Origin: Pseudomonas nunensis
GTDB lineage: Bacteria > Pseudomonadota > Gammaproteobacteria > Pseudomonadales > Pseudomonadaceae
Direction: 5' to 3'
Assembly: GCF_024296925.1 (NCBI RefSeq)
Contig: NZ_CP101125.1
Span: 3,598,501 to 3,662,500 of the forward strand
DNA length: 64,000 nucleotides
In this document: positions 25,555-31,093 of the stretch, piece after piece
Numbering within the stretch: the first letter of the stretch is position 1
Layout: each line of letters opens with the position of its first letter
Program-made: the position numbers and the translations under genes
Notes under the pieces: generated by a model
What the model was told of the DNA's origin: nothing
Databases searched by the model: none
The model's input: only the letters and a program-made list of their open reading frames with translations

Positions 25555-26175
25555 GTGCATGACATTTTCACTATCAACTGGCTGCTTTGGCTGTCCACCA
25601 TGGCACCGATGACCCTGAGTGCCGGCCCCGGCAACCTGATGGTGGCGACCTCTGGCGCGCAGAGCGGTGTGCGCCGCTCGGTGCGGTTTATCGTCGGGCT
25701 CGATATCACCTACTTTCTGCTCGCGGTACTGGTGGGGCTGGGGCTTTATCACACGCTGATGAGCCATCCGACCCTGGTTTGGTGGCTGCAAGTGATCGGC
25801 AGTTTCTACATCTTGTGGCTCGGTGTCCGGCTGCTGCGCCGCCCCTTGAAAGCCCCCGACGACAAGGCCCTGCATTTGCAATTTCGCGACGGCATCGTGG
25901 TGCAACTGGGCAATGTGCAAGGCATCGTGATGTTGCTGGTGATGTTCACCACGTTTTTGCCCTCCGGCGACACCAGCAGCAGCGTCGTGCTGATCCTCAG
26001 CGCCGCGCTGATTTCGCTAAATTTTTTCTCCCACGTCATCTGGGTATCGATGGGCTCGACGGTGCAGAAGCTGATCCGGGCACGGCCCAGGCTGCTGGCA
26101 TTTCAGAACACGGTCTTCGGACTGATGCTGATCGCCGTAGCGATCTGGATTTTCCTGCGTACCGGCCCGCTGTAA
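25555..26175 (+). CDS. LysE/RhtB-family amino acid exporter
   Basis: A 206-residue inner membrane protein with about six transmembrane segments. The family signature MTLSAGPGNLMVATSGAQSGVRRSVRFIVGLD is near the N-terminus. It exports amino acids or related small metabolites; the substrate is not predictable. It starts at GTG 25555 with AAGGAAG upstream; no in-frame ATG is nearby. Followed after 9 bases by the quinone reductase gene, so the two are likely co-transcribed. Confidence 0.9.
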   Translation: MHDIFTINWLLWLSTMAPMTLSAGPGNLMVATSGAQSGVRRSVRFIVGLDITYFLLAVLVGLGLYHTLMSHPTLVWWLQVIGSFYILWLGVRLLRRPLKAPDDKALHLQFRDGIVVQLGNVQGIVMLLVMFTTFLPSGDTSSSVVLILSAALISLNFFSHVIWVSMGSTVQKLIRARPRLLAFQNTVFGLMLIAVAIWIFLRTGPL

Positions 26176-26184
26176 GGAGCTCCA

Positions 26185-27171
26185 ATGACCCACGCACATG
26201 GAATGGTGTTCGCCGCCCCCGGAGCCCCGGACGTCCTCGAACTGCGCGAATATGAACTGCGCGCCCCCGGCCTCGGGGAGATCACCGTCGCCATCGAAGC
26301 GGCGGGCGTGAACTTCATCGACCTGCACCGTCGCTCCGGCGTGCTGGAGGACGGGTCATCCTTCCCCCGGAACCTCGGTATGGAAGGCGCGGGCCGGGTT
26401 GTCGAATGTGGACCGCAAGTGCATGGTTTTGCACCCGGTGACCGGGTAGCGTTCGTCGACAGCTCGACCGGAAGCTATGCCAGCCATGCGGTGCTACCGG
26501 CAGCAAGGACGATCCGCCTGCCCGATGATGTGCCGAGCGAACTCGCCGCGTCATTGATGCTCAAGGGGCTGGCCGCCGAATACCTGACCCATCGCTGCGT
26601 ACCGCTCAAACCGGATGACTGGGTGGTCTGGCACGCGGCGGCAGGCGGGGTCGGCAGCATTGCGACGGGCTGGCTGATCGCACGCGGCGTACGCGTCATT
26701 GGTCTGGCTTCGACTGTAGCGAAAAGGCACCAGGTGCTGGAAGCCGGTTGCAGCGCCGCCTTCGATGCCCAAGCCCCAAGGACGCCGGTGTTTATTCGTG
26801 AAATGACCGAGGGCCAGGGCGCTCACATCGTTTTCGATTCCGTCGGGGCCGCGTCCGTGGAAATGTCACTGGCGAGCCTGCGTCCACGCGGTCACCTGGT
26901 GCTGTTTGGCAATGCCTCCGGCGACGTGACCGGTTTCAATCTGTCGCGACTCGGCTACCTGGGCTCGTTGCATGTGACCCGGCCGTCCTTGAAACACTAC
27001 ATCGGCCAGGACAACGAACTCGCTGCCGCCTCAGATCGGGTGCTACTGGCGTTGGCTGCCGGCGCGATCCGGCCGCCACAAGTAACGCGCATGCCGCTCG
27101 CCGAGGCAGCACAGGCCCATCGCATGGTTCAGGACCGACAAACCCGGGGATCACTGATCCTCGTGCCCTGA
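26185..27171 (+). CDS. NADPH:quinone reductase-like zinc-independent alcohol dehydrogenase family protein
   Basis: A 328-residue medium-chain dehydrogenase/reductase of the QOR group. Features: GVNFIDLHRRSGV, the GroES-like N-terminal domain, the nucleotide-binding HAAAGGVGSIATGWLIARG and GQGAHIVFDSVGAASVEMSL. The catalytic zinc ligands of alcohol dehydrogenases are absent, as in quinone oxidoreductases. Follows the LysE-type gene by 9 bases with AAGGAG upstream; the converging LysR gene begins 20 bases downstream. Confidence 0.92.
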   Translation: MTHAHGMVFAAPGAPDVLELREYELRAPGLGEITVAIEAAGVNFIDLHRRSGVLEDGSSFPRNLGMEGAGRVVECGPQVHGFAPGDRVAFVDSSTGSYASHAVLPAARTIRLPDDVPSELAASLMLKGLAAEYLTHRCVPLKPDDWVVWHAAAGGVGSIATGWLIARGVRVIGLASTVAKRHQVLEAGCSAAFDAQAPRTPVFIREMTEGQGAHIVFDSVGAASVEMSLASLRPRGHLVLFGNASGDVTGFNLSRLGYLGSLHVTRPSLKHYIGQDNELAAASDRVLLALAAGAIRPPQVTRMPLAEAAQAHRMVQDRQTRGSLILVP

Positions 27172-28072: not shown

Positions 28073-28174
28073 GTCATTCCCAAAAATGGAATATCGATCC
28101 CCACCTATTTCTATTCGAAGTAAGAGGAGGCCACGTTAATTTTTTCGCATCGAGCCAAACCAGGGGATACAGGG

Positions 28175-29311
28175 ATGATACGTAACTCGATGCGCGCACT
28201 TCCGGGGTTCATGCAACCGTTTTTGAGTTGGCTCACGGCCAAGCCACTGCCTGAAGATCTCAATCAGGCCCGCCAGTTGAGGCCGGTTCACCATATTCTT
28301 GTGTCAGTGGGATTAATAGCGTTCGGCGTGCTGTTCGCCGCAATCGGTTACTTGCACGCCAGCCTCGCCCTCTGGTTGTTGGGCTTTGTCATCGCAACCG
28401 GTGGCATCAAGCAGATGCAGGTCATGATCTGCCATAACTGCGCCCACGACATGGTGTTTGAACAACGTGAGTTGAATGTTCGAGTGGGCCGGCTTATCTC
28501 TGGCGTACTGATGCTCAAGCCGTTTGATATCTACAAACAGGAACACGCCCTGCATCACAGCTCCAGAACCCTGCTGACCGACGATGACGACACACTGTCC
28601 TACCTGCGGAACGTGGTGGGCTTAACACCGTCCGACAGCATCGCCACCCTGTGGACCAAACTGGTGAGCGCCGCGTTGTCGCCACAGGCCATGCTGCGTT
28701 CTGCCTGGGGAAGATTGAAGGCGACGGCGGGCGCACCAGACAGGCCGGTGGCGCGATGGACGCTGATCTTCTGGGCGACCCTCTCGTTACTGGCGGCAGC
28801 CGTTGGGCACTTCGATCTCTTTGTGATGACGTGGGTCGTACCGGTGTTCATCGGCTATCACATCAGCACCACCTTCCGCCTGGCGGCCGAGCACACCTGG
28901 CCCAGCATCCAGGTACTGGAGCGACGCGGTATCGACTTCATTTGCGAAAGCACGACCGGGGTGTTTATCGGTGAAGAACTGCGCATACCTGAAGGCGCCG
29001 GCGCTGTTCGACGCTTCGCTCATATCGGCGTATGGCTGATCAAGATGCTGGGTTTCCACTTGTTTATCCGCTTGTTCGTCATGGTCGGCGATACACCGTG
29101 TCATGACTTCCATCACCGGCGCCCAAGATCGAAGGACTGGCCCAACTACGTGACAGCACGAGAGCGGGACAGGCTCGAAGGCGCCCGGCCTTTTCCCAGT
29201 AACTACATCGACCATTGGGGATATATCAGCGCTGTCACGACCAACTTTCGCAAGTTCCAGCAGGCACTTCCGTATTACACAAACAGGCTGGCTACCTCAG
29301 AGGGATTTTAA
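28175..29311 (+). CDS. Membrane diiron fatty acid desaturase-family protein
   Basis: A 378-residue integral membrane di-iron enzyme with the three histidine boxes of the desaturase/hydroxylase family: HNCAHD (about residue 86), HALHHSS (about 125) and HDFHHRRP (about 310). Four to six hydrophobic segments separate them. Members insert double bonds or hydroxyl groups; some act on amino-acid-derived molecules rather than lipids, for example RtxC in rhizobitoxine synthesis. First gene of an operon: its stop TAA overlaps the next start (TAATG). Its substrate is unknown; the mutase partners suggest an amino-acid-like one. Confidence 0.88.
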   Translation: MIRNSMRALPGFMQPFLSWLTAKPLPEDLNQARQLRPVHHILVSVGLIAFGVLFAAIGYLHASLALWLLGFVIATGGIKQMQVMICHNCAHDMVFEQRELNVRVGRLISGVLMLKPFDIYKQEHALHHSSRTLLTDDDDTLSYLRNVVGLTPSDSIATLWTKLVSAALSPQAMLRSAWGRLKATAGAPDRPVARWTLIFWATLSLLAAAVGHFDLFVMTWVVPVFIGYHISTTFRLAAEHTWPSIQVLERRGIDFICESTTGVFIGEELRIPEGAGAVRRFAHIGVWLIKMLGFHLFIRLFVMVGDTPCHDFHHRRPRSKDWPNYVTARERDRLEGARPFPSNYIDHWGYISAVTTNFRKFQQALPYYTNRLATSEGF

Positions 29312-29766
29312 TGATGGCGTTCAACAAGACCGTTCTTCTTATGACTGTTCCCTCCGATTCCCATAGCTGGAACTTGGTATTCATGGAGTTCCTGCTCAAT
29401 GACTTCGGTTACAAGGTCGACAACATGGGGCCCAACACGCCGATGGATGAAGTGATTGAGCGGCTGCACAGTCACGGTTACGCGATGGTCGTGGTGAGCA
29501 CAGTCAACGGCCACGGTTACATCGAAGGCACTGAACTCGCCCGACGCATCCGTAGCGAAACGAAGCATGCCGAGGCGCTGTATATCGGCGGCAAGATCTG
29601 CACCGAAAACGACGTCGGGACCATTGCCCGGCATAGCGATACGCTGATGGCTGCCGGTTTTGACGAGGTGTTCGACGACAGCGTGACGAACAGCTTCGAT
29701 GCCTTTCAGCAACTGCTGAGCGCCCAGCTGTACCCGACATACCTGGAAAAACGGGTCGCCGGATGA
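29311..29766 (+). CDS. Cobalamin-binding subunit of a glutamate mutase-like enzyme (GlmS/MutS-type)
   Basis: A 151-residue B12-binding domain resembling the sigma subunit of glutamate (methylaspartate) mutase. The axial histidine motif is DSHSWN where the family has DxHxxG, so the last glycine is replaced by Asn; it is followed by VVSTVNGHGYIEG and YIGGK, the GG motif of the nucleotide-tail pocket. It should carry adenosylcobalamin to the large subunit encoded next. Starts overlap the desaturase stop by one base and its own end overlaps the next start as ATGA. A second ATG at 29314 is equally possible. Confidence 0.88.
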   Translation: MMAFNKTVLLMTVPSDSHSWNLVFMEFLLNDFGYKVDNMGPNTPMDEVIERLHSHGYAMVVVSTVNGHGYIEGTELARRIRSETKHAEALYIGGKICTENDVGTIARHSDTLMAAGFDEVFDDSVTNSFDAFQQLLSAQLYPTYLEKRVAG

Positions 29767-30968
29767 TCGACTTCAACCGCCACGTCCTCGAACGGTACGA
29801 CTCGCACGGCCCGGTCTTGCAGCCGCGAATGGGCTTCAGTTGCCCGGGCCGGATGCAGGCCGGGCTGCAAGCCACGGCGGTCAGTCGTGCGAACACCGTG
29901 TGCACCATCACCCTCGATGCCTTCACTCGGGTGAAAGACCTCGACGCGGCACAGCGCGCGATTGATAGCGGATCCATGCTCAACGGCTATCCGATCGTCA
30001 ACCATCCGGCGGCCCAGACCCGCGCCATGCTCGATCAGATTCATACCCGCTATCGTCTGCCGGTGCAGATTCGTCATGGCTCTCCCGACCCGCTGCATAT
30101 TTTTAAGCGCATGGTCGAAATCGGCTCGGCCACCACCGAGGGCGGGCCACTTTCCTATTGCTTGCCCTACAGCCGCACGCCGTTGCGCCAGGCATTCAGT
30201 GATTGGGAAAAAGCCTGTCAGGTGTTGGCCAGTGGTGTCGAACACAGCCACATCGAAAGCTTCGCCGGTTGCATGATGGGGCAGATGTGCGACCCGGCTA
30301 TCCTGGTCGCACTGAATATTCTTGAAGGGTTGTTTTTGCGCGCCCAGGGGATCGAGACCCTGTCCTTTTCCTACGCCCAAGGCACCTCTCCCGTACAGGA
30401 CCGCGCGGCGGTGACGGCCTTGCAGCAACTTGCCGCCGAGTACTTTGCGCCGGACAGTTATCACTGCGTGGGGTATGTGTTCATGGGGTTTTTCCCGCGC
30501 ACACTGGGCGGTTTCTGCCGAATCACTGGCGATGCGCTGGGCATGATCCGCGCCACCGGCGTGCAGCGGGTGATCATCAAGACGCCAGTGGAATCACGCC
30601 GGATTCCTCGGATCGAGGAGAACATCGCCGCGCTGGAATATGCCGATTATTGCCTGCGCACCGACGGTGCTTTGCCGGACATTCCTTTCGACAGGCAAGA
30701 ATATGTGCGCATTTTCAACACTGCGAAACGACTGATCGAGGGCACACTGACGCGCGACGCTGACTTGTCGGAAGCGATTCTCGACGCTTTCGACAGTGGT
30801 TTCCTATCGATTCCGTATTGCCTGCACCCGGACAACAAACGGGGCGCCGGCACCGTGGTCACCGCGCAAAACTATTACCAGGGGTTCGAGGGCGAACGAG
30901 TAGAGAATGCCTTCTCGTTCCTGGCGGCGCTGCGGCACAACATCCGGACTTATGATGCGGTGCTTTGA
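29763..30968 (+). CDS. Glutamate mutase epsilon-like catalytic subunit (methylaspartate mutase GlmE-type)
   Basis: A 401-residue TIM-barrel subunit related to the epsilon chain of adenosylcobalamin-dependent glutamate mutase, which interconverts L-glutamate and threo-3-methylaspartate. Visible family features are QIRHGSPDP (substrate-carboxylate Arg), TEGGPLSYCLPYSRTPLRQA with DWEKAC (substrate-binding Arg/Glu region), SFAGCMMGQMCDP and KTPVESRRIPR. It is about 80 residues shorter than clostridial MutE. No glmL reactivase gene is adjacent. With the desaturase it forms a putative small biosynthetic unit; the actual substrate may differ from glutamate. Confidence 0.85.
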   Translation: MIDFNRHVLERYDSHGPVLQPRMGFSCPGRMQAGLQATAVSRANTVCTITLDAFTRVKDLDAAQRAIDSGSMLNGYPIVNHPAAQTRAMLDQIHTRYRLPVQIRHGSPDPLHIFKRMVEIGSATTEGGPLSYCLPYSRTPLRQAFSDWEKACQVLASGVEHSHIESFAGCMMGQMCDPAILVALNILEGLFLRAQGIETLSFSYAQGTSPVQDRAAVTALQQLAAEYFAPDSYHCVGYVFMGFFPRTLGGFCRITGDALGMIRATGVQRVIIKTPVESRRIPRIEENIAALEYADYCLRTDGALPDIPFDRQEYVRIFNTAKRLIEGTLTRDADLSEAILDAFDSGFLSIPYCLHPDNKRGAGTVVTAQNYYQGFEGERVENAFSFLAALRHNIRTYDAVL

Positions 30969-30985
30969 AGTGCACCAGCTGACAA

Positions 30986-31075
30986 TGTGGGAGCGGGCTT
31001 GCTCGCGAATGCGGTGTGACAGTCAACCTCCAGGCTGAATGACACACCGCATTCGCGAGCAAGCCCGCTCCCACA
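30986..31075. repeat. REP pair (REPIN-like inverted repeat)
   Basis: Inverted copies TGTGGGAGCGGGCTTGCTCG and reverse complement, spacer about 35 bases with GCGGTGTGACAG. It lies between the mutase operon and a converging lipoprotein gene. Confidence 0.92.
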
Positions 31076-31093
31076 GGTGTTTTGAGGCGGGTC

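Follow-up and report, generated by a model that had tools for sequence, protein, structure and literature searches.

What could a pseudomonad make with a membrane diiron desaturase that is encoded in one operon with two glutamate-mutase-like subunits? This question is raised by a locus of Pseudomonas nunensis, which we analyzed within a stretch of 64,000 nucleotides (hereafter the window). The initial annotation of the locus had supposed that the desaturase and mutase genes serve the synthesis of an unsaturated or hydroxylated branched amino acid. We consider it likely, with a probability of roughly 0.6, that six genes make up a self-contained pathway whose product is a small diffusible amino acid, and in which a mutase reaction would be followed by oxidation by the desaturase Des and export by RhtB. 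The features are:

25555..26175, + strand: rhtB, LysE/RhtB-type amino-acid exporter, 206 aa, listed with a GTG start
26185..27171, + strand: qor, zinc-less MDR protein, NADPH:quinone-reductase-like, 328 aa
27191..28072, - strand: lysR, LysR-family regulator, 293 aa, divergent from des-glmS-glmE
28082..28103, + strand: conserved intergenic motif, candidate LysR operator/promoter element
28175..29311, + strand: des, membrane diiron desaturase/hydroxylase, 378 aa, of a family for which no characterized member was found
29311..29766, + strand: glmS, B12-binding subunit, 151 aa, with a DxHxxN variant of the cobalamin motif
29763..30968, + strand: glmE, glutamate-mutase-like catalytic subunit, 401 aa

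The coupling of des, glmS and glmE and the divergent orientation of lysR, which had been described before, were confirmed by the coordinates and overlaps: the glmS ATG at 29311 uses the final base of the des stop codon (TAATG), the glmE ATG at 29763 overlaps the glmS stop codon (ATGA), and lysR and des are separated by 102 bases. The conserved unit, however, extends further than was noted then, since rhtB and qor also belong to it, resulting in a module of six genes and about 5.4 kb. For this comparison we used 14 distinct intact loci, i.e. the window, nine loci from a scan of genome contigs and four from other genomes of the genus (L030, L031 and L033 duplicate L029, L023 and L025 and were each counted once). 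As expected for the conserved neighborhood that the initial annotation proposed to look for, des, glmS and glmE occur together in all 14 loci; each of them, like lysR, is present in 14/14. The gene qor is present in 13 (it is missing from L025), and the complete order rhtB-qor-lysR(-)-des-glmS-glmE is found in 12. An amino-acid exporter family is represented throughout, by rhtB in 13 of the 14 loci and in Leisingera (L028) by a gene of the EamA family in its place, which lies in one run with qor and a gene for a PLP-dependent decarboxylase. With regard to the accessory proteins of the window, RhtB matches PF01810 with 64.0 bits (cut-off 25.6), Qor has the ADH_N/ADH_zinc_N domains and scores 257.5 bits with PRK10754, which is under the cut-off of 348, and LysR consists of HTH_1 and LysR_substrate domains and is 40% identical to its Leisingera homologue.

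The distribution of the module indicates that its genes are inherited as a unit. Among 298 genomes of the genus, GlmE found matches in 19, of which eight are 74-100% identical, ten are 44-47% identical (one of these is split over two contigs, the second piece at 38%) and one is a fragment (G204); the ten distant matches belong to another operon. Des, searched in the same genomes, gave 34 matches, composed of eight near full length at 64-100% identity, one fragment of 73 residues (G246) and 25 that do not exceed 35% identity. The genomes with full-length des and those with close glmE form the identical set of 8 of the 298, which argues against a chance association, and the pairwise identities of Des and GlmE are correlated (Mantel r 0.91, 16 pairs, 0 of 5000 permutations as high), from which we conclude that the pair travels together. 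Two genomes contain remnants: G204 (locus L037) retains rhtB, lysR and glmE residues 346-399, and G246 (locus L087) retains rhtB, qor, lysR and residues 1-71 of Des. In these cases, few as they are, exporter and regulator were kept while biosynthetic genes were lost, as an immunity function would give. In broader samples, 12 of 369 genomes of the class matched Des at E <= 1e-3, all except the window's own genome at 34% identity or less, and 5 of 398 genomes of the phylum matched at E <= 1e-20; two of these contain the module and the other three are distant matches. The B12 mutase-desaturase cluster is sporadically inherited in soil pseudomonads.

The intergenic motif at 28082-28103 has one match in the window, with 0.02 expected. 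Of the 14 distinct intact loci, 11 contain its 21-base core without a mismatch, among them the divergent loci L026, L027, L035 and L036; L021 and L034 each differ from it at one position, and Leisingera L028 lacks it. Among the remnants, the core is exact in L087 and carries two mismatches in L037. Judged by this conservation, the motif is a candidate LysR operator or promoter element.

Des is a membrane diiron protein with three histidine boxes, as had been recognized before: it matches the Pfam family FA_desaturase (PF00487) with 60.4 bits (cut-off 29.7), and in 31 aligned sequences including that of the window eight of the nine His-box positions are invariant, the ninth being H in 27 and D in 4. 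The fold also places Des in this superfamily; Foldseek returned nothing at E <= 0.001, but in the VIA second look the superfamily assignment was obtained, with a fold that is common to stearoyl-CoA desaturase and the hydroxylase AlkB. A search of PDB sequences with the Des profile gave no meaningful match. No NCBIfam cut-off was reached by Des, and the highest scores, 41.9 bits for GntB (NF041365, cut-off 380) and 41.0 bits for the fatty-acid desaturase DesA, are practically tied. GntB was the best NCBIfam match for all five members of the Des family that were scanned, in each case far under the cut-off. The earlier designation as an RtxC-type desaturase was not borne out, and membership of Des in the RtxC/GntB family was rejected: Des is only 19% identical over 221 residues to Paraburkholderia RtxC (rtx operon of pBPHY02), which itself reaches 304.8 bits with the GntB model. 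From these values we conclude that Des is a separate branch of the superfamily. It is also distant from every characterized amino-acid enzyme that we compared, and we could find no characterized member of its family.

GlmE and GlmS resemble glutamate mutase, although the correspondence is not complete. GlmE matches Met_asp_mut_E with 213.2 bits (cut-off 26.6), GlmS matches the B12-binding domain PF02310 with a borderline 32.1 bits (cut-off 32.1), and, among proteins of solved structure, both are closest in sequence to the respective subunits of glutamate mutase from Clostridium cochlearium, GlmS matching the sigma subunit 1i9c_A at E 2.8e-4. The predicted fold of GlmE is that of the E subunit, and its residues R22, R56, R104, H105, E126, Y132, Y136, K273 and E277 are invariant in 41 of 41 aligned rows; we take these to be the counterparts of the catalytic and substrate-binding residues R66, R100, R149, H150, E171, Y177, Y181, K326 and E330 of glutamate mutase. 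The consensus of the cobalamin-binding motif is DxHxxG, of which GlmS retains D and H; the G is replaced by N throughout the 27 aligned rows, which include three duplicates and also cover the second Pseudomonas clade. The NCBIfam equivalog cut-offs were missed by both GlmE (TIGR01503, 132.1 versus 390.1) and GlmS (TIGR01501, 44.4 versus 135.8; PRK02261, 51.4 versus 110), and therefore we do not class the pair as an equivalog of the catabolic mutase but assume that it probably works like it. The initial claim that a glmL reactivase and a methylaspartase are lacking nearby could be extended to the whole genome, in which the MutL/GlmL family (PF13941) had no match, albeit with a weak control (2 of 14 control genomes matched, none over the cut-off), and the sole match to methylaspartase is enolase (Enolase_C 462.7 bits versus MAAL_C 25.8 bits, cut-off 27).

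A tree of GlmE, which had been suggested as a check, separates the des-linked proteins from the catabolic enzymes. It comprises 65 proteins and was midpoint-rooted; the relatives were the best 120 of 1508 matches in one protein search, which scored those candidates sharing most words, and P0002, P0003, P0005, P0008-P0011, P0013 and two thirds of P0033-P0120 were left out. Linkage to des was assigned to 14 Des/GlmE pairs that were matched by the lengths of their contigs, to the window and to RIT623, other rows being unlabelled rather than negative. All 16 des-linked GlmE proteins belong to one clade of 26 rows (support 100/99), in which the remaining 10 rows have no linkage label. Its sister group, joined with support 96/99, is a clade of 28 rows (98/97), to which the PKS- and NRPS-associated mutases of the Streptomyces loci L069 and L068 belong. 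Outside of both are the catabolic enzymes (100/100) and the second Pseudomonas clade.

A protein search that scored the candidates with most words in common gave at least 63 sequences of the desaturase family. We then considered the neighborhoods of more distant desaturase relatives, using 16 loci that do not belong to the Pseudomonas module (L028, L064-L066, L085 and L088-L098); G664/L086, whose desaturase match has an internal TGA and whose ORF was not recovered, is not among them. A gene for an exporter of the RhtB, EamA or AzlC family is located within about 5 kb in 11 of the 16, namely EamA in L028, L064, L085, L090, L091, L092 and L098, AzlC in L065 and L097, AzlC/AzlD in L066 and LysE/RhtB in L096. 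None was found in L088, L089, L093, L094 and L095 (5/16); in L088 and L093 the desaturase ORF itself was not recovered, so that an exporter could be missed too, and L094 and L095 carry penicillin-amidase and FA_hydroxylase genes. The 7.33 Mb genome of the window has 17 LysE, 2 AzlC and 27 EamA genes (the last number being derived from 50 domain matches that exceed the cut-off), by which about 7% of random places, or about one of 16 loci, would have an exporter within 5 kb, a rate that derives from one genome and is applied to loci that are not independent. Partner genes of the relatives encode HalD (PF23169, which we take to be the BesD family), an iron-containing redox enzyme (PF14518, presumably of the BesC kind), 2OG-Fe dioxygenases and threonine dehydratase. 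The Des-type family recurs in the vicinity of genes for amino-acid exporters and for amino-acid halogenases or oxygenases. Outside the GlmE-linked clade, the relatives with an exporter share only 22-32% identity with the Des of the window, and thus their substrates may differ. Sequence relatives of Des are also present in Actinobacteria, and one protein (P0173) is an EamA-desaturase fusion.

We infer the reactions, their order and the product as follows. Based on fold and conserved catalytic residues, GlmE-GlmS with adenosylcobalamin would convert L-glutamate to (2S,3S)-3-methylaspartate, which as the free amino acid would be oxidized by the membrane diiron enzyme Des with O2, preferably by desaturation, with hydroxylation being nearly as likely. 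The equilibrium of glutamate mutase favors glutamate, and the irreversible O2-dependent oxidation would pull it forward, so that a methylaspartase would not be needed. Oxidation at the methyl group and C3 would give L-beta-methyleneaspartate, which is our preferred guess for the product because it belongs, like the product of RtxC, to the beta,gamma-unsaturated amino acids. Beta-methyleneaspartate is an inhibitor of aspartate transaminase. RhtB would export the product, Qor, which is of the enone/quinone-reductase type, may have a protective function for the cell or complete the product, and LysR would control the operon from the shared intergenic region.

Other chemistry is a serious competitor for part of this scheme, with odds not far below even, and it overlaps with the preferred reading: Des could be a hydroxylase or could act on glutamate before the mutase, yielding a hydroxylated methylaspartate or a rearranged hydroxy- or dehydro-glutamate. 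The position of des as first gene, the fold shared with AlkB and the consistent, if far sub-threshold, preference of the family for the model of the arginine hydroxylase GntB point in this direction; however, the catalytic residues of GlmE correspond to an enzyme that acts on unmodified glutamate, and the GntB model cannot separate hydroxylation from desaturation, since the desaturase RtxC matches it as well. That Des modifies membrane lipids and shares an operon fortuitously with a glutamate mutase feeding metabolism is, in our judgment, very unlikely. The Pfam name, the fold in common with stearoyl-CoA desaturase, the near tie of DesA with GntB and the FA_hydroxylase genes beside two distant relatives would fit such a role, but the shared occurrence and co-divergence of des and glmE and the amino-acid exporters and amino-acid oxygenase families at other loci speak against it, and five other PF00487 proteins over the cut-off in the genome could serve lipids. 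We reject, as extremely improbable, that the genes serve glutamate use by the catabolic methylaspartate pathway. The mutase pair is similar to the catabolic enzyme, with homologous subunits and fold, and the three catabolic loci that we read also have a regulator gene nearby; yet these loci encode methylaspartate ammonia-lyase and CoA-ester lyase (3/3) and GlmL (2/3), whereas the genome search, with its weak MutL control, found neither GlmL nor the ammonia-lyase here, GlmE falls outside the catabolic group, and neither an O2-dependent desaturase nor an exporter fits catabolism.

A further alternative concerns the function of the exported amino acid, which could be a signal or a nutrient-exchange molecule instead of an antimetabolite. 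LysR regulation fits signaling, and no resistance enzyme, e.g. an altered target, is evident among the six genes; the two remnants with rhtB and lysR are better explained by immunity, and the products of the LysE-containing AMB and FVG clusters are inhibitory amino acids, and hence we regard this alternative as possible but doubtful. The amino-acid pathway for the trio remains the best fit and is strengthened by the conserved RhtB and by the exporters and amino-acid oxygenase families beside distant Des relatives, even though its RtxC-type label was lost. Taken in full, it would run from glutamate via 3-methylaspartate to the unsaturated C5 amino acid L-beta-methyleneaspartate and its export by RhtB, would make Des the founding characterized member of an unnamed family of membrane diiron enzymes for free amino acids that is associated across Proteobacteria with exporters of the RhtB, EamA or AzlCD kind, and would make trio-less strains with rhtB and lysR immune non-producers; this complete combination is rather improbable.

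Several known systems share parts of the module. The actinobacterial pairs VinH/VinI and SceL/SceM, which provide 3-methylaspartate starter units, also consist of GlmS and GlmE with the catalytic residues kept, and the L068 and L069 mutases, sister clade to the des-linked GlmE, have no reactivase among their annotated neighbors in an incomplete gene table. These pairs feed carrier-bound NRPS/PKS assembly, while the unit of the window, which lacks NRPS/PKS genes, combines its pair with an exporter and a free-standing membrane desaturase. For SceL/SceM a role in the 3-methylaspartate supply of macrolactam pathways was predicted (PMC5785472), and the cluster seems to borrow this step. In the rhizobitoxine cluster, an FA_desaturase-type membrane enzyme is likewise encoded together with a LysE translocator in the operon for an amino-acid toxin, although this enzyme, RtxC, is GntB-like and the carbon skeleton derives from other enzymes. 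RtxC is the dihydrorhizobitoxine desaturase (PMC6304460), and GntB, an L-arginine gamma-hydroxylase, is a transmembrane enzyme making the linear precursor in guanitoxin biosynthesis (PMC10367076). The small AMB and FVG clusters of Pseudomonas also include LysE-type genes and serve the formation of toxic non-proteinogenic amino acids; AMB relies on NRPSs and Fe/2OG oxygenases, and the sections consulted mention neither a B12 mutase nor a membrane desaturase for AMB or FVG (PMC4357302, PMC8064604). A LysE gene is no proof that it is needed, because the LysE gene gvgK of FVG is dispensable and not present in every cluster (PMC8064604). Finally, a link to the BesD/HalD halogenase clusters is given by a Des relative that adjoins a HalD-family gene, together with EamA and aminotransferase genes (L085); BesD chlorinates free lysine (PMC10187165), and the module of the window has no halogenase. 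By analogy, the cluster probably works like the LysE-associated amino-acid toxin clusters of AMB, FVG and rhizobitoxine.

In the open PMC literature we found no description of a glutamate or methylaspartate mutase combined with a desaturase in a Pseudomonas biosynthetic cluster, and the locus potentially encodes a new product. If our reading is true, it would join an adenosylcobalamin-dependent carbon-skeleton rearrangement to a membrane diiron oxidase in a minimal pathway for a free amino acid that has no carrier-protein genes. The Des family could then be used for mining new amino-acid antimetabolites, and since the module is small and present in pseudomonads, its product and activity would be directly testable.

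Directly downstream of glmE, a long near-perfect inverted repeat occupies positions 30975-31080 of the window, which is REP-like by eye and may terminate the transcript. Remnants of the module were found at two loci (L037 in genome G204 and L087 in genome G246), in which the reading frames of the exporter and the regulator are present at full length and the biosynthetic genes are lost or cut to a fragment.

A GlmS/GlmE operon distinct from the module of the window is present in the 10 Pseudomonas genomes that carry the second GlmE clade (loci L038-L048). The gene content of this operon at locus L043, including a 498-aa protein for which no Pfam match was obtained, is as follows.

Genes of the second GlmS/GlmE operon at L043
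class-II tRNA-synthetase-like protein
luciferase-like monooxygenase
MFS transporter
GlmS
two ATP-grasp enzymes
498-aa protein
GlmE
ketopantoate hydroxymethyltransferase
MocR-type regulator

The GlmS/GlmE neighbourhood on a Methylobacter plasmid (L067) resembles this second operon. There, GlmS/GlmE are adjoined by genes for asparagine synthetase A, an EamA transporter and an aminotransferase-type regulator, and panB is located about 7.5 kb away.

Relatives of the window's desaturase also occur in other gene clusters. On the Agrobacterium vitis plasmid pRvVAT039a (L064), such a relative is clustered with EamA, ferredoxin-NADP reductase, IrrA, an iron-containing redox enzyme (PF14518), a 2OG-Fe dioxygenase and DapF, which probably constitute an amino-acid pathway of their own. 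A single gene run at L085 (genome G426), comprising a HalD-family halogenase, a desaturase relative, NUDIX, GARS, a class-III aminotransferase and EamA, is a candidate for a halogenated amino-acid pathway. In one 753-aa protein (P0173), a desaturase of this family and an EamA exporter are naturally fused. At L098 (genome G994), the desaturase relative, a 2OG-Fe_Oxy_2 dioxygenase, EamA and a threonine dehydratase are encoded by adjacent genes, and the threonine dehydratase could provide self-resistance to an isoleucine analogue.
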